Source: Coriobacteriia bacterium (lineage in GTDB: Bacteria > Actinomycetota > Coriobacteriia > Anaerosomatales > PALSA-660). From it: a stretch of 44,831 bases of DNA. The notes under the pieces are model-generated. The model was not told the origin of the DNA, did no database searches, and worked only from the letters and a program-made list of their open reading frames with translations. Below are positions 37,444 to 44,634 of this stretch, in pieces (positions within the stretch are counted from its first letter, which is position 1; each line of letters starts with the position of its first letter). The stretch lies in NCBI GenBank assembly GCA_025361885.1, contig JANYJF010000069.1, positions 1-44,831 on the forward strand, written 5' to 3'. A program made the position numbers and the translations under genes.

Positions 37444-37486
37444 CGGTTCGGACCCGCGCGGCCGGCGCGCTTCGAAAGGAGGGCCC

Positions 37487-37728
37487 GTGCCCATCTCAAC
37501 GACCCGATACACGAGTTCCTGACGTTCCCTGCGGTCATCGCCCTGCTGCTTGCGGTCGTTCTCAAACCCGTTCCGATCCCGGCGGCGGTCATGGACTGGT
37601 TGGCAGTGCCGGCGAAGATGACGGTGCCTCTCGTGGTGATCTCGGTGGAGTTGACGCTCGAGTGGTCGGCGGTCAGGCAAAGGATCGGCGCGCTCGCGAC
37701 GTCCGCCGCGACCATCCCTGTAGCGTAG
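37487..37728 (+). pseudogene. Remnant of an AEC-family (auxin efflux carrier/malate permease) transporter
   Basis: A strong ribosome site (AAAGGAGG) stands 3 bases before GTG 37487, but that frame stops after 11 codons. The frame two bases on (from 37489) reads HLNDPIHEFLTFPAVIALLL, then a TFP/LLL/KPVPIPAAV/PLVVISVELTL series typical of the C-terminal half of AEC permeases, up to TAG at 37726. Some 200 N-terminal residues and the last helices are missing. It looks like a gene that lost its middle by deletion, leaving its translation start and a C-terminal piece joined out of frame. The remaining sequence up to comF (37729-37809) shows nothing further. Confidence 0.6.
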
Positions 37729-37809: not shown

Positions 37810-38490
37810 ATGCTCGAAGCGCTCGCGGAGCTGCTGTTCCCGACACGTTGCGCCGGCTGCGACCTCCCGGGCGGGCTGCTGTGCGCGGCGTGCGCAGAGA
37901 GGCTGCCTCTCATCGATCCCGCGACCGCGTGTCCCCGCTGCGGCGCTCCCACGGTCTCGGCATGCTGTGTCGAGTGTGCGGACGTGCCGTTCACCTTCAC
38001 CGCCGCACGGTGTGCGGGCGTGCTCGAACCGCCCCTGTCGCGGATGGTGGCGCTTCACAAGGATGCCGGCGAGCGCCGGCTGGCGCCGGCCCTCGCCTCA
38101 CTCGCGCTCGACGTGCTCTCAGGCTGGCTCGAGTGGCCGGATGCGGTCTGCGGCGTGCCCGCGTCGCCGGCGGCGGTGCTCCATCGCGGGTTCGACCACG
38201 GCGCCAGTCTGGCGGCGAGCCTCGGAGGCCTGGCCGGCATCCCCGCGATCGAGCCGCTGCGCTGCCGGCCGCGCCTGGACCAGCGCGCCCTGACCCGGGA
38301 GCAGCGGCGCGCCAACGCCGCGCGGTCGATCGTGCCCCATGCGGGGGTGCACGTCCCAGCGCGGGTCCTGCTCCTCGATGACGTCTTCACTACCGGCGCC
38401 ACGCTCGACGCGGCCGCCTCCGCGCTGCTGTCCGCGGGGGCCGTCGAGGTCCGTGTCGTGGCCGTCGCGAGAGCCTGCGGCGGAGGGTGA
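37810..38490 (+). CDS. comF: ComF-family phosphoribosyltransferase-like protein
   Basis: 226 aa. N-terminal zinc ribbons (C14-x2-C17, then CAAC, CPRC and CVEC pairs) and a PRTase domain with the PRPP motif LLLDDVFTTGATL near residue 190. ComF proteins take part in DNA uptake for transformation; the reaction is uncertain. It stands alone here without other com genes. GAAGGGGG lies upstream of the ATG. Nothing suggests decay. Confidence 0.9.
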   Translation: MLEALAELLFPTRCAGCDLPGGLLCAACAERLPLIDPATACPRCGAPTVSACCVECADVPFTFTAARCAGVLEPPLSRMVALHKDAGERRLAPALASLALDVLSGWLEWPDAVCGVPASPAAVLHRGFDHGASLAASLGGLAGIPAIEPLRCRPRLDQRALTREQRRANAARSIVPHAGVHVPARVLLLDDVFTTGATLDAAASALLSAGAVEVRVVAVARACGGG

Positions 38491-38782
38491 GCATGGTACA
38501 CTTCTGGATGCTTCCATCCGGGTCTGTGGTTGCGGGCGCGCAAGCGCCCTAGTCCATGGTAGACGCGGCCGAAAGGACCCACGTAAGCCGGCGATCTCGT
38601 ATCGTCGCGCGAGCATGGCGCGTCTTAGGGGTAAGTCGTACCGTCCGTTTGGGTCGCATCCCGCGGCCCCGGGCGAGAGGGCCGGTAGTGAGATCACATC
38701 AAGCGGAAGCCCCTGTATGCGAGTGTGGGGCCAAAGACCAGGTCAGCCGGGTGGAAGCACTAGATCTTCTTCGGAGGTCCGC
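38491..38782 (+). other. 292-base GC-rich structured leader or unidentified ncRNA
   Basis: No convincing ORF on either strand. Several good stems: GGATG-CTTC-CATCC (38506-38519), GGGCGC-GCAA-GCGCCC with a GNRA loop (38534-38549), an enclosing GGGTC/GACCC pair, CGGCCC/GGGCCG near 38664-38682, and GCCCC/GGGGC near 38709-38731. A TACACT at 38497-38502 could be a -10 box starting a transcript near 38509. It ends at the ribosome site of the ABC binding-protein gene, so it may be a riboswitch-like leader. I could not match it to a known class. Confidence 0.4.
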
Positions 38783-39637
38783 GTGAGGGTTTCGCGAGTC
38801 ACAGCGTCACTGCTCGTCACGGCGCTCATCGCGAGCGCCGTCGTGCTCTCCGGGTGTGCGGGCAACGTCGGCACAGCACCGATGACGCCCAAGGTCGCTC
38901 CGCCGGTCATCGCGAAGGCGGGGGAGCTCACGGTCGCCGTCGACCTGTCGTATCCGCCGTTCGCCTCCAAGATGGGCGAAGACAAGGTCGGCTGGGACGT
39001 GGACGTGGCTGCGGCCATCGCCGACCGCCTCGGTCTCAAACTCGTGCTCGTCGACGCCAGGCCCGACGCGGCCGCCAAGCTCCTGGCTGCCAAGAAGGCC
39101 GACATGGTGCTAGGCGACCTGTCCGTCGCCCGCGCGCTCGACCTCGACGTGGCGTTCGCTGGCTCGTACGCTTCGGACGCCCCCGCGGTGTTCTCATCGA
39201 AGGGGGTCACGGTCAGCCCGGATGCTCTTGGCGGGAAGCGGATAGCCACACAGAAGGGGTCCGAGGCGTACTGGCTGCTGGCCGACACGTATGGCGAACA
39301 GGCCCTCATGCTGTACCCGGATCTTCGCGAGGCCATGAGCGCCCTCGCGGGTGGCCAGGCGGACGTCGTGGCAGGTGATGCCATCGTGGGTGGGTACATG
39401 CTCCGCGACTTTCCGAAGATCGCCTTCGCCGGACAACTCGCGCAGGCGAGTCCTTTGGGCGTGGGCGTCTCGAAGGGCGCTCCCAAGCTCGAAGTGGCGG
39501 TACGTCGCGCTCTCGACGAGATGTCGGCCCAGGGCATCCTGGCCACATTGCGCAGGAAGTGGGTGGGCGACCTTCCTCAGCTCAAGTCCCCTGGTGCCGA
39601 GTCCTCCTCGACCGCCGACGCGACCGGCTCGCCGTAA
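38783..39637 (+). CDS. Lipoprotein amino-acid-binding protein (ABC transporter, family 3), first copy
   Basis: 284 aa. Signal peptide and lipobox LSG-C25, so it is anchored outside the membrane. The SBP_bac_3 fold opens GELTVAVDLSYPPFASK and continues with GWDVDVAAAIADRLGLKLVLVD. It is divergent: the usual Arg/Asp residues binding the amino-acid backbone are not clear, and after LGDLSVARALDLDVAFAGSY the typical acidic hinge is weak. GTG start with GGAGG 5 bases before. It precedes a second, more typical binding protein by 150 bases. Confidence 0.82.
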   Translation: MRVSRVTASLLVTALIASAVVLSGCAGNVGTAPMTPKVAPPVIAKAGELTVAVDLSYPPFASKMGEDKVGWDVDVAAAIADRLGLKLVLVDARPDAAAKLLAAKKADMVLGDLSVARALDLDVAFAGSYASDAPAVFSSKGVTVSPDALGGKRIATQKGSEAYWLLADTYGEQALMLYPDLREAMSALAGGQADVVAGDAIVGGYMLRDFPKIAFAGQLAQASPLGVGVSKGAPKLEVAVRRALDEMSAQGILATLRRKWVGDLPQLKSPGAESSSTADATGSP

Positions 39638-39787: not shown

Positions 39788-40618
39788 ATGTCGAAGCACA
39801 GTAAGTGGATCGCGCTGGCACTCGCAGTCGCGATGCTCGGGACCGCGGGCCTCATCGCCGGTTGTTCGAGCAGCACGGCCAGCACGCCCGGCACGACCGG
39901 CACCACGCCCGCGAAGGCGACGGTCAAGACCGTCACGGCCGGCACGCTCGTCGCCGGCTCCGACACGGCGTTCCCGCCGTTCGAGTCCATGAACGGCAAC
40001 ACGGCCGAGGGCTTCGACGTTGATGTCGTGGCGGCCGTCGCCAAGGAGATGGGCCTCAAGAGCGAGTTCAAGTCCTACAAGTTCGACACTCTGATCCCGA
40101 CACTGATCGCCGGCGGCAAGTTCGACATCATCGCGTCGGGCATGACCATCAATGCTGACCGCAAGAAGCAGATCGACTTCTCCAGTCCCTACATCGACTC
40201 CAACCAGTCGATCTCGGTGACGAACGCTTCCACCGTCAAGGCCGCCGCGGACCTCGCCGGCAAGAAGATCGGCGTCCAGTCCGGCACGACCGGTCAGCAG
40301 TGGGCCAAGGAGAACATCCCCACCGCCGTCCTCGTCCCGTTCGATGACACCCTGTCCGCCTTCGCGGCGCTGCAGGCCGGCAAGGTTGACGCGGTCGTCA
40401 ACGACCTGCCCGTGTCCGCGGCCGTCGTCAAGGACGCGACCCGCGGTCTCAAGATCGTCCAGGAGATCCCGACCGGCGAGCAGTACGGTTTCGGCGTCAG
40501 CAAGGCCAATCCCGACCTGCTGAAGGCCGTCGACGGCGCGCTGGCCAAGATCAAGTCCTCTGGTGAGTACGACACCATCTACAAGAAGTGGTTCGGCGTC
40601 GCCCCGAGCAGCAAGTAG
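39788..40618 (+). CDS. Polar amino-acid-binding lipoprotein (ABC transporter, family 3), second copy
   Basis: 276 aa. Lipobox IAG-C26, a Thr/Ser-rich tether, then a standard SBP_bac_3 domain: GTLVAGSDTAFPPFESM, GFDVDVVAAVAKEMGL, FDIIASGMTINADRKKQIDFSSPYI, KIGVQSGTTG, VDAVVNDLPVSA and YGFGVSK. The Arg after NAD and the Asp of NDLPV are positions that bind the amino-acid carboxylate and amine in glutamine/arginine binders. AGGAGG lies 5 bases before the ATG. A terminator-like hairpin separates it from the permease, which would make the binding protein more abundant than the membrane parts. Confidence 0.93.
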   Translation: MSKHSKWIALALAVAMLGTAGLIAGCSSSTASTPGTTGTTPAKATVKTVTAGTLVAGSDTAFPPFESMNGNTAEGFDVDVVAAVAKEMGLKSEFKSYKFDTLIPTLIAGGKFDIIASGMTINADRKKQIDFSSPYIDSNQSISVTNASTVKAAADLAGKKIGVQSGTTGQQWAKENIPTAVLVPFDDTLSAFAALQAGKVDAVVNDLPVSAAVVKDATRGLKIVQEIPTGEQYGFGVSKANPDLLKAVDGALAKIKSSGEYDTIYKKWFGVAPSSK

Positions 40619-40710: not shown

Positions 40711-42048
40711 ATGCGTACGATGCGACGCTCGCGAGGACTCCAACGCCTTGGCGCGCTACTCTGCCTGATGGCTGTCGTGGCACTTGTGGTACCTCTGGCC
40801 GCGCTCGGGATCGGGGCCGCAGGCACGACCATGACCATCGACCAGACCACGGGTGGTCTGGAAACGCGTTTCACGTACGAGACAGCCACTGCCCCCGGTG
40901 AGACCGTGCTCGGTATCGACTTCGCCTTCCCGGAGGGGACGGACACCGCCAAGGCTACCGCTGACGCCGTCACGCTGGTGGGGCTGCAGCGCAGCAACGT
41001 CACGGTCGAGACCCAGGCGAAGGGGACCTCGGTCAAGGTCATCTTCAGCCCATCCGTGGAGCCCAGCAGCACCCTCCGCGTCGTCCTCCATGATGTCCTC
41101 ACGACGTATGCTGGCGGGAAGCAGACCGTCTCCGGCACGTACACCACGCAGACGGGCACCCACAAGCTGCCTCCGATGACCTTCACCCAGGGGGCGCCGA
41201 CCGTCTCGCAGCGCATCGGCTTCTGGCTCAATCGCCAGCCGCTGGTCAAGACGTGGAACAGCGTGCCCATCCTCAATGCCTTCTTCAACCCACAGCTGAT
41301 CGCGATCAGCATCCCGATCCTGTTCTGGGGCTGGCTGCTGTCGATCGCACTCATCGGGGTCGCATACCCGGTCGCCATCCCGATCGGTCTGGCGACGGCG
41401 TTCCTCAAGATGTCAAAACTCGCACCGGTCCGCTGGATAGCCAGCGCGTATATCAACGTCATCCGCGGCACGCCGCTCTTCCTGCAGATCTACATCGCGT
41501 TCTTCGGTCTGCCGCTCGTGGGCATCCGCCTGCCCGACTTCCCGCTGGGCGTCATCGTGCTCGCTGTCAACAGCGGTGCATACCTGGCTGAGATCTTCCG
41601 AGCCGGCATCCAGTCGATCAACAAGGGTCAGTTCGAAGCGGCATCCTCCCTGGGCATGACCTACGCACAGGCGATGGCCTACGTCATCATCCCGCAGACG
41701 GTCAGGCGCGTTCTGCCTACCATGACCTCCGAGTTCATCCTTCTGTTCAAGGACACTGCACTGCTCTCGGCCGTCGGTATCTTCGAGTTGATGATGAATG
41801 CGAAGAACAGCGCAGCTAACACCGGAAACGTCACCGCCTACACAGTGGCGGCCGTCTACTACCTGATGATCACCATCCCGCTCATCAACTGGGTCGGGAA
41901 GCTGGAGCAACGGCTGGCGCTCTCCGAAGGCGCATCTGGCTCCCCGGGGACCAAGACCAGGAAGTCGGGCGCCCTCGAGGGAATGGCCCGCATGGCCGCA
42001 CCTGTGACGGCCGACGCCGGAACACCCGACGACACGGACGGGAGGTAG
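40711..42048 (+). CDS. Amino-acid ABC transporter permease with extracytoplasmic N-terminal domain
   Basis: 445 aa, about twice a normal GlnP/HisM permease. Residues 15-37 form a membrane or signal helix. About 38-165 are a Thr/Val-rich, helix-poor segment (for example [19 protein letters not shown]) that looks like a beta-sandwich outside the membrane. The permease core starts near 195: [17 protein letters not shown], and the EAA loop [20 protein letters not shown] near 309 that docks on the ATPase. The C-terminal tail (after about 410) is cytoplasmic and low-complexity. ATG 40711 has GAAGGGG upstream. It is followed by glnQ after 4 bases. Confidence 0.9.
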
Positions 42049-42052
42049 CGAC

Positions 42053-42787
42053 ATGGCCGACCCCATCGTCCGCATCCAGAATCTCAAGAAGGCCTTCGGC
42101 GACAACGTCGTGCTCAAAGACATCGACATGGACGTCCAGAAGGGCGAGGTCGTAGTCATCCTGGGCCCGTCGGGCTCGGGTAAGTCGACGATGCTGCGCT
42201 GCATCAACAGGCTCGAGGAGCCGACCGGCGGCCACATCTGGTTCGAGGACATCGAGATCACCAGCCCCAAGACGAACATCAACGAGATCCGCGAGCGGAT
42301 CGGCATGGTGTTCCAAAGCTTCAACCTGTTCCCTCACCTGACCGCCAAGGACAACGTGATGCTCGCACAGCGGCGAGTGCTCAAGCGCTCGAAGGACGAG
42401 GCGGAGCGGATCGCCGAGGAGCAGCTCAGGAAGGTGGGCCTCGGTGACAGGATCGACTACTTCCCCGCGCAGCTCTCTGGCGGACAGCAGCAGCGCGTGG
42501 CCATCGCCAGAGCCCTTGCAATGGACCCGCACGTCATGTTGTTCGACGAGGTCACCTCGGCCCTCGACCCCGAGCTGGTCCGTGGCGTCCTGGACGTCAT
42601 GAAGCAGCTCGCGGCCGGCGGCATGACCATGCTCGTGGTGACGCATGAGATGGGATTCGCGCGCGAAGTGGCGACCCGTGCCGTCTTCATGGAAGGCGGC
42701 GTCATCGTGGAGCAGGGGACGCCTCAGGAGGTATTCGACCACCCGAAGTCCGAACGCACACAGGACTTCCTCGGCCACATCAGGTAG
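42053..42787 (+). CDS. glnQ: Amino-acid ABC transporter ATP-binding protein (GlnQ-type)
   Basis: 244 aa. Walker [10 protein letters not shown] at 38-46, Q-loop [11 protein letters not shown], signature LSGGQ at 141-145, Walker B VMLFDE with D165/E166, H-loop VVTHEM. The polar amino-acid uptake (PAAT) family pattern is clear. It powers the permease next to it. GGGAGG lies just before the ATG. A terminator follows. Confidence 0.96.
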
Positions 42788-42902: not shown

Positions 42903-43457
42903 ATGGACATGGTCGTCAAGGGCCGTCACATGGAGGTGACTCCCGAGCTTCGCGCGTACGCGGAAGAGAAGGTCGGGAAGCTCAGCAAGATCCTCGAGAG
43001 CATGATCATGAGCGTGGAGGTGGAGTTGTATCACGAGCGCAACCGCTCGATCGACAAGAACCAGGTGGCGGAGGTCACCGTGTACACGAAGGGGCCCGTC
43101 ATCCGCGCTCGCGAAGCCGCGACCGATACGAAGGCCGCGATCGACCTGGTGAGCGAGAAGCTCGAGACGCAGGCCCGCAAGCTCAAGGGCAGGCTGAGGG
43201 ACAAGCACTCCGGGAAGGGAGCGCTCGCACCCGTCGCAGCATCGCCGGGACTCGACTCCGGAGACGAGGAGAACGATCACACCATCGTCAAGTCGAAGAA
43301 GCTCGATCTCAAGCCCATGACCACGGAAGAGGCGATGCTCCAGCTGGAGCTGCTGGGGCACGACTTCCTGCTGTTCTCCTCGGCGGAGACGGACCTTGTC
43401 AGCGTCCTGTACCGACGACGCGACGGCGACTACGGACTCCTCGAGCCCATGGGGTAG
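42903..43457 (+). CDS. hpf: Long-form ribosome hibernation promoting factor
   Basis: 184 aa. N-terminal HPF/RaiA domain (about 1-105: MDMVVKGRHMEVTPELRAYAEEK) binds the 30S decoding site; after a linker the C-terminal domain (about 135-184: MTTEEAMLQLELLGHDFLLF, YRRRDGDYGLLEP) dimerises ribosomes into 100S particles. ATG 42903 has AAGGAGG 8 bases upstream; an in-frame ATG at 42885 overlaps that site and is unlikely. It is a one-gene unit between two hairpins. The raiA RNA motif was not recognised upstream. Confidence 0.95.
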   Translation: MDMVVKGRHMEVTPELRAYAEEKVGKLSKILESMIMSVEVELYHERNRSIDKNQVAEVTVYTKGPVIRAREAATDTKAAIDLVSEKLETQARKLKGRLRDKHSGKGALAPVAASPGLDSGDEENDHTIVKSKKLDLKPMTTEEAMLQLELLGHDFLLFSSAETDLVSVLYRRRDGDYGLLEPMG

Positions 43458-43841: not shown

Positions 43842-43871
43842 TTGACACGCTTCGAGAGTGCAGCCTAGACT
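43842..43871 (+). promoter_or_regulatory. Near-consensus sigma70 promoter
   Basis: TTGACA (43842-43847), 18 bases, TAGACT (43866-43871). Transcription would start about 43878, about 94 bases before the GTG at 43972. It is the best promoter match I saw in the window. Confidence 0.6.
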
Positions 43872-43971
43872 CAGGCCACGGTCGAGTGGCAGCCGCTTCC
43901 GGCGATTTGGGCGGCGCTCGCAGGCTCGCAGAATAGTCGCAGTCGCACTGCATCGGCCCCAGGGGGCAAGC

Positions 43972-44634
43972 GTGGACCAAGTCATCACTCCCGCGACCAT
44001 CATCGAGATAGAGCAGGCACTCAGCGAGGTCGCTGAGATCAAGGCCGCTCGCATCGTCTCCTCCGCTGAGGGTGTCATCCAGGAGATCCATGTTCTGGCG
44101 CTGCCCTCGAAGACGCCCAAGCAGCTGGTGCGCGACATCGAGTCGACCATAATGGCGCGCTTCGGCATCCCGGTCGATCATCGCAAGGTCTCGATCGCGC
44201 AGCTGGGCGCCGAGTCGATGCCCACGGTGGCTGAACCCGTCCACGAGCGCGCGAAGATCCAGGCGGTCAACACCGAGGTCTCCGGCGTCAACGCGATCGT
44301 GACCGTGACGCTCGGTTTCGAAGACGAGGTCTACATCGGTCGCGCGGAGGGGCCAGCCAGCCAGACCGGTCGTCTTCGCCTCATAGCGCAGGCGACGCTC
44401 AATGCGGTGGAGCAGTACGCGCACGGGGCGTATGGTTTCGCGCTCGAAGACGTGTCCATCGTGCAGCTGGGCCACGAGCGTGTGGCAGTGTGCTGCGTGA
44501 TGCTCGTGACGCCGCTGGGGGAGCAGGCCTTCGCCGGCTCGGCCCTGGATAGACAGAACGACAGAGACTCGATCGTGAGGGCAACACTGGACGCCATAGA
44601 CCGGCGCCTTGGCTTCTTCACAACCACATAAGGC
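43972..44634 (+). CDS. Conserved-looking protein of unknown function with two related halves
   Basis: About 219 aa (the stop falls at about 44629-44631), no signal peptide or membrane helix, no motif I can name. The first half has a helix-strand series ending VRDIESTIMARFGIPVDHRK and VSIAQLG. The second half repeats the plan, ending AHGAYGF and VSIVQLG, so an internal duplication of an alpha/beta domain is likely. GTG start with AGGGGG 5-6 bases upstream and a good promoter about 100 bases away. A signal-peptide-bearing small ORF follows after about 137 bases and may be co-transcribed. I know of no experimental function. Confidence 0.75.

Follow-up and report, generated by a model that had tools for sequence, protein, structure and literature searches.

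A full-length raiA (ModT) RNA precedes an amino-acid-type binding-protein gene in a Coriobacteriia bacterium

To our knowledge, raiA RNA is among the few large and widespread bacterial RNAs having a solved structure but no known activity. In a published survey, comFC was found upstream of raiA RNA at a frequency of 74% and hpf/raiA downstream of it at a frequency of 66%, both being common rather than defining neighbours (PMC11706538). According to that work, the RNA is abundant and stable in C. difficile and C. acetobutylicum, and its loss, which affects sporulation in both species and, in C. difficile, also the growth transition and cyclic di-GMP, can be rescued from another locus (PMC11706538). 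Read-through long isoforms of raiA RNA have been described in clostridia, and raiA terminators have been proposed to be ancestral and to have been lost in individual bacteria (PMC11706538). The work on the two clostridia treats raiA RNA as trans-acting and not as a cis riboswitch (PMC11706538; PMC11477304). A raiA motif located upstream of periplasmic-binding-protein genes has also been reported (Weinberg 2017, as cited in PMC11477304).

Here we describe a raiA RNA lying before an amino-acid-type binding-protein gene (SBP1) in a stretch of Coriobacteriia DNA of 44,831 nucleotides, analysed as a whole and hereafter referred to as the window, and we compare the locus with those of its relatives.

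Identity and fold of the RNA

The Rfam scan of the whole window retrieved a single family above cut-off, RF03072 (raiA RNA, renamed ModT), the model of which was matched over its entire length (1–209 of 209) at positions 38513–38755 of the plus strand, with a score of 158 bits against a cut-off of 101.3, i.e., 57 bits above it, and an E value of 1e-39. Since the outermost helix reaches past the Rfam match, the RNA was placed, with ends lengthened by P1 pairing, at 38510–38758 (+); it is present in single copy in the genome of the window. The structured stretch is a full-length raiA (ModT) RNA with an intact, covarying fold including both pseudoknots, and the window copy is an ordinary member of the family. 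A previous sequence-only reading had described the stretch as an unidentified structured RNA, possibly a new riboswitch. Structured it is, as indicated by the covariance model score and by the covariation reported below, but the significant match to a known class, an outcome which that reading had itself named as contrary to its proposal, leaves it neither unidentified nor new. The same reading had not been able to fit the stretch to the glycine, lysine, SAM, T-box, glutamine, c-di-GMP or ydaO classes, in agreement with raiA being the only Rfam family matched.

As had also been noted, the interval between the comFC stop (38490) and the GTG start of the binding-protein gene (38783) is structured and non-coding. 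A 76-aa frame (38556–38786) is the only listed plus-strand ORF starting within it and ending by the SBP1 start; the SBP1 reading frame happens to stay open upstream to nt 38339, and antisense frames also overlap the stretch. The folding energy was unexceptional (z = −1.37, with 16 of 200 shuffles folding equally well); energy-based folding was therefore dropped as a proof of structure, which here depends on the Rfam family match and covariation.

The published helices and pseudoknots were placed on the window by means of the Rfam alignment and of the text on the cryo-EM structure (PMC11751092), and covariation was evaluated in 66 of the 90 class-level loci, after removal of near-copies. The known fold maps to 67 pairs, counting those of both pseudoknots, and each of them is a standard pair in the window. 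Across the 66 relatives, 94.4% of the cells are paired, versus 32–45% in slid-partner controls, and both-sided changes occur at 41 of the 67 pairs. None of 500 shuffles matched the real alignment on any of five covariation measures, so that the covariation analysis suggested by the sequence-only reading gave a positive outcome.

Helices P1 and P3–P8 all form in the window (all positions refer to the plus strand), together with P2, here termed optional because C. difficile ModT is without it (PMC11706538). P1a (38510–38521 with 38747–38758) and P1b (38524–38526 with 38744–38746), considered jointly, are 95.0% paired among relatives, with 12 of 15 pairs changing on both sides, and are continued by P1c (38527–38531 with 38736–38740), mapped from the known fold. 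P2 (38534–38549) corresponds to the GNRA-capped six-pair hairpin already recognised by eye (38534–38539 with 38544–38549, loop GCAA); it is 95.6% paired, with both-sided changes at 5 of its 6 pairs, and in the alignment its loop is of the GNRA, UUCG or other kinds. Pseudoknot pk-1 joins 38561–38567 (AGACGCG) to 38619–38625 (CGCGTCT), with 7 of 7 pairs formed in the window and 97.0% of cells paired in relatives; three of the seven pairs change on both sides, A-U being replaced by G-C in 26 of 66 loci and C-G by U-A in 23 of 66. Both pairs of pk-2 (38616–38617 with 38732–38733) form in the window (95.5% paired in relatives), and one of the two changes on both sides. P4 (38579–38583 with 38724–38728), enclosing P5, pk-L, P6, P7 and P8, is 99.7% paired and shows little covariation because it is nearly invariant. 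In the P6-P7-P8 domain (38637–38719), made of P6 (38637–38641 with 38715–38719), P7 (38642–38646 with 38671–38675) and P8 (38679–38682 with 38709–38712), pairing reaches 98–100% and both-sided changes occur at 9 of 14 pairs. The weak point of the fold is P5, with 64.4% of cells paired, a helix that aligned poorly across the class and is thus weakly tested.

An additional enclosing pair proposed earlier, GGGTC with GACCC (38520–38524 with 38576–38580), did not find support in the 66 relatives: the letters can pair, but none of the five pairs changes on both sides, and one-sided changes lack the corresponding change in the partner. In the accepted fold these bases are located within P1, P3a or P4, or between them.

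Genes around the RNA in the window and in relatives

The gene order in the window is mtnA-like, comFC, RNA, SBP1, SBP2, permease, ATPase and hpf, with the genes from comFC onwards all on the plus strand. The comFC-like gene (37810–38490), whose position is conserved, carries DZR_2 and Pribosyltran domains, both slightly under the Pfam cut-offs. SBP1 (38783–39637; SBP_bac_3, PF00497, E 8.4e-21) is the first gene after the RNA and encodes an amino-acid-type binding lipoprotein, with a lipoprotein signal peptide starting from nt 38783 and closest solved sequences that are mostly amino-acid binding proteins. It is followed by the genes of an amino-acid-type ABC transporter, namely SBP2 (39788–40618; PF00497), a permease (40711–42048; PF00528) and an ATPase (42053–42787; PF00005). 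Beyond this operon, 4.1 kb downstream of the RNA, lies its namesake gene hpf/raiA (42903–43457; PF02482 and PF16321), coding for the ribosome hibernation factor. The window therefore displays comFC upstream, a feature of the raiA family, and does not display hpf directly downstream. In the interval between the mtnA-like gene and comFC, which is longer in many relatives, a short frame (37444–37725) matches part of a membrane transport protein below the cut-off (PF03547, E 0.0047) and probably represents what is left of a larger gene. Downstream of hpf, a 257-aa frame (43858–44631) had no Pfam match.

raiA RNA was detected in 89 of the 99 relatives searched, in every case above the cut-off, for 90 loci, and in the wider phylum in 137 of 396 genomes (135 above cut-off); for the wider-phylum sample, 60 of the 117 newly found genomes were hand-picked to spread over families. 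At all 61 loci of the window's order SBP1 was the first recognised downstream gene. Elsewhere in the class a binding protein came first at 29 of 33 loci (22 of SBP1 type and 7 of SBP2 type), hpf at 2 and no recognised gene at 2, and in the other classes of the phylum a binding protein came first at 0 of 56 loci, hpf at 42 and no recognised gene at 14, these last counts (2 of 33 and 14 of 56) being inflated since the classifier recognises only genes resembling those of the window and requires a ribosome site. Indeed, hpf was found by tblastn in one genome scored as having none (G115), and at the two class-level loci scored in this way a binding-protein gene lies 236 and 250 nt away.

Same-strand comFC lies upstream of the RNA at 59 of the 61 loci of the order, the other two having less than 1 kb of flank; like comFC, the mtnA-like gene and hpf are conserved neighbours across the order. 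SBP1 still adjoins the RNA where comFC is inverted or displaced and where the transporter is absent; in particular, at 18 of the 20 loci from families f18, f19 and f22, SBP1 is present and the fetched flank shows no permease. Other genes take this place elsewhere: secA is found 39 and 42 nt after the RNA in 2 of 3 loci of family f68, and a membrane-protein gene replaces SBP1 in 2 of 2 loci of family f21, 30 and 35 nt after the RNA, while f20 loci lacking SBP1 have their next binding protein 86–301 nt away. The fetched flanks of the f68 loci L163 and L164 contain no hpf match, secA having been recognised by Pfam scan of the L163 protein; the f21 loci L057 and L042 encode a membrane-like protein of 175–179 aa, the L057 copy of which had no Pfam match. 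In family f39 (L139–L143) the RNA seems to stand alone, with hpf located upstream of comFC and an mtnA-like gene downstream of the RNA, both on the opposite strand. One metagenome bin (G047) has two raiA RNA loci, L034 and L045, both before SBP1, and could be either a mixed bin or a case of true duplication.

The binding-protein tree was built on 136 of 157 sequences (those shorter than 150 aa were dropped) with a quick search and midpoint rooting. One fully supported clade, apart from SBP2 of the transporter, gathers 83 of the 89 RNA-adjacent binding proteins; the other 6, all from family f20, are placed among the transporter proteins.

No RNA match was obtained in 10 of the 99 relatives. In three of them (G027, G043 and G067) SBP1 is located at the very start of a contig, in one case with 41 nt of the RNA retained, so that the absence looks like an assembly end; in the other seven SBP1 is absent or represented by a weak paralogue. 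Loss of the RNA with SBP1 being kept was accordingly rejected. In G039 and G077 comFC is present with no RNA match in the fetched stretch; the search gave no comFC match in G012, G019, G022 and G068, and only a short piece of comFC in G045.

Transcription signals and the relation of the RNA to SBP1

The RNA is preceded by an extended −10 element, TG-G-TACACT (TGGTACACT; 38494–38502, +), combining the TACACT at 38497–38502, previously indicated as a possible −10, with a TG at 38494–38495. Its general form, TGnTAnnnT, is present in 79 of 90 relatives within the 40 nt preceding the RNA, 16–21 nt from the Rfam start, versus a mean of 2.5 and a maximum of 8 in shuffled sequences. Among the remaining 11, a plain TATAAT-like box is found in the same place in 10 and no box in 1. 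With a stricter extended −10 pattern, 55 of the 61 loci of the window's order were retrieved (0.56 in shuffles). The earlier suggestion of an independent RNA with its own −10 thus holds, and the RNA start is predicted at about nt 38509–38510.

On the other side, the Rfam 3' end and the SBP1 start are separated by a median of 31 nt (quartiles 30–34, n = 61, window's order), and SBP1 and SBP2 by a median of 160 nt (quartiles 135–195, n = 57). No terminator-like site was found in the window between 38300 and 39900. Intrinsic terminators require a T-rich tail after the stem. Such a tail directly follows P1 in 3 of 61 loci of the window's order, in 7 of 29 of the rest of the class and in 22 of 56 of the other classes. 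The extended −10 is absent from all 61 RNA–SBP1 gaps, leading us to reject a separate SBP1 promoter, and after SBP1 it occurs at 1 of 61 loci, versus 1.7 in shuffles. Since neither a terminator nor an inner promoter was found and SBP1 starts about 25–30 nt after P1, the sequence indicates that the RNA promoter most likely also serves SBP1 in the window's lineage. The absent terminator is in accordance with the terminator loss proposed for individual bacteria (PMC11706538).

The stretch ends, as observed in the sequence-only reading, at the ribosome binding site of SBP1 (GGAGG, 38773–38777, +). In the window this site is predicted to be mostly paired (0.11 unpaired), and the segment 38767–38783 can pair. 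Among relatives, the median unpaired value was 0.34 for SBP1 (n = 61) versus 0.40 for SBP2 (n = 57), with p 0.15, and the sequence of the RNA–SBP1 gap shows no conservation. The ribosome-site hairpin, occurring in the window and not common to relatives, was rejected as an expression platform; neither a terminator, nor conserved masking, nor a conserved gap, as expected for a riboswitch platform, was found.

Taken together, the locus probably carries a raiA RNA of the published trans-acting kind, here constituting the 5' part of a longer transcript shared with SBP1. The dedicated extended −10 promoter would transcribe the RNA from a predicted start corresponding to the first base of helix P1, so that the whole RNA, from end to end, would fold into a closed unit. 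With no terminator following, transcription would proceed into SBP1 and perhaps into the operon beyond. By analogy with clostridia, trimming or pausing at P1 may then yield a stable structured RNA acting in trans, a role demonstrated only in Bacillota, and SBP1 may be a promoter-sharing gene occupying the place held elsewhere by hpf, secA or a membrane-protein gene. This reading is favoured by the clostridial rescue from another locus, by the read-through isoforms and the proposed terminator loss, and by the finding that other genes fill the place of SBP1 in families without it. Against it count the very faithful adjacency of RNA and SBP1, surviving the absence of the transporter as a mere passenger need not, and the Rfam typing of RF03072 as cis-regulatory/riboswitch.

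Because of this faithful and narrow adjacency, some weight is kept by a cis-acting leader, unlikely as we judge it, in which the raiA fold of Coriobacteriia would control SBP1 directly, either as a riboswitch or bound by a protein, for instance with P1 held beside the ribosome site. SBP1 is co-oriented with the RNA at a narrow distance (quartiles 30–34 nt), its single orthologous clade is kept beside the RNA, also at the f18, f19 and f22 loci with no permease in the fetched flank (18 of 20), and the extended −10 is lacking in 61 of 61 gaps; yet the gap is unconserved and without a terminator, the ribosome site is not more strongly paired than that of SBP2, different genes stand at similar distances in other families, and complementation in trans has been obtained in clostridia (PMC11706538). 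It is quite unlikely that, in the ancestor of the class, SBP1 simply came to lie between the RNA and hpf and that it uses the RNA promoter with no functional tie: the conservation of comFC, mtnA-like and hpf neighbours over the order and the variation of the downstream gene between classes would agree with such a history, but SBP1 stayed by the RNA despite comFC inversion or displacement and transporter absence. The unremarkable folding energy alone (z −1.37) might suggest a new RNA class, or GC-rich DNA folding by chance; both are refuted by the strong covariation and by an Rfam match that is full-length and exceeds the cut-off by 57 bits. Also quite unlikely, finally, is the proposal that RNA and SBP1 form one functional unit in Coriobacteriia, with an obligate 5' leader sensing or answering an amino-acid-related signal and setting SBP1 output in cis; if true, the ligand of SBP1 would point towards whatever ligand or partner raiA RNA has throughout bacteria.

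Comparison with described raiA loci

In our literature search no published link between the raiA motif and Coriobacteriia was found, and a general link with periplasmic-binding-protein genes is in print (PMC11477304). The RNA family, its fold and this link are thus already known, and the comparative addition is modest. The raiA–periplasmic-binding-protein arrangement is apparently the same as that of the window, the passage of PMC11477304 describing it without spacing, orthology or class-wide extent. What the locus adds is a lineage pattern, i.e., a class mostly devoid of the T-rich tail and having one orthologous binding-protein gene at a narrow distance from the RNA, which extends to families where no nearby transporter permease was found. 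This pattern represents a specific, testable hint on transcript processing and on a possible amino-acid link.

When compared with the RF03072 family, the window shares helices P1–P8, both pseudoknots, the optional P2, comFC upstream and a promoter element before the RNA, whereas it differs in having an amino-acid-type binding protein downstream instead of hpf, which is 4.1 kb off, and in the absence of a T-rich tail after P1. In C. difficile ModT, which is without the P2 present in the window, two termination sites give forms of 215 and 260 nt (PMC11706538), whereas none was seen in the window, where the start codon follows about 25 nt on. The two loci nevertheless have in common the same RNA family, an RNA promoter of its own and a downstream gene other than hpf (PMC11706538), as well as a comFC-like gene upstream (PMC11477304).
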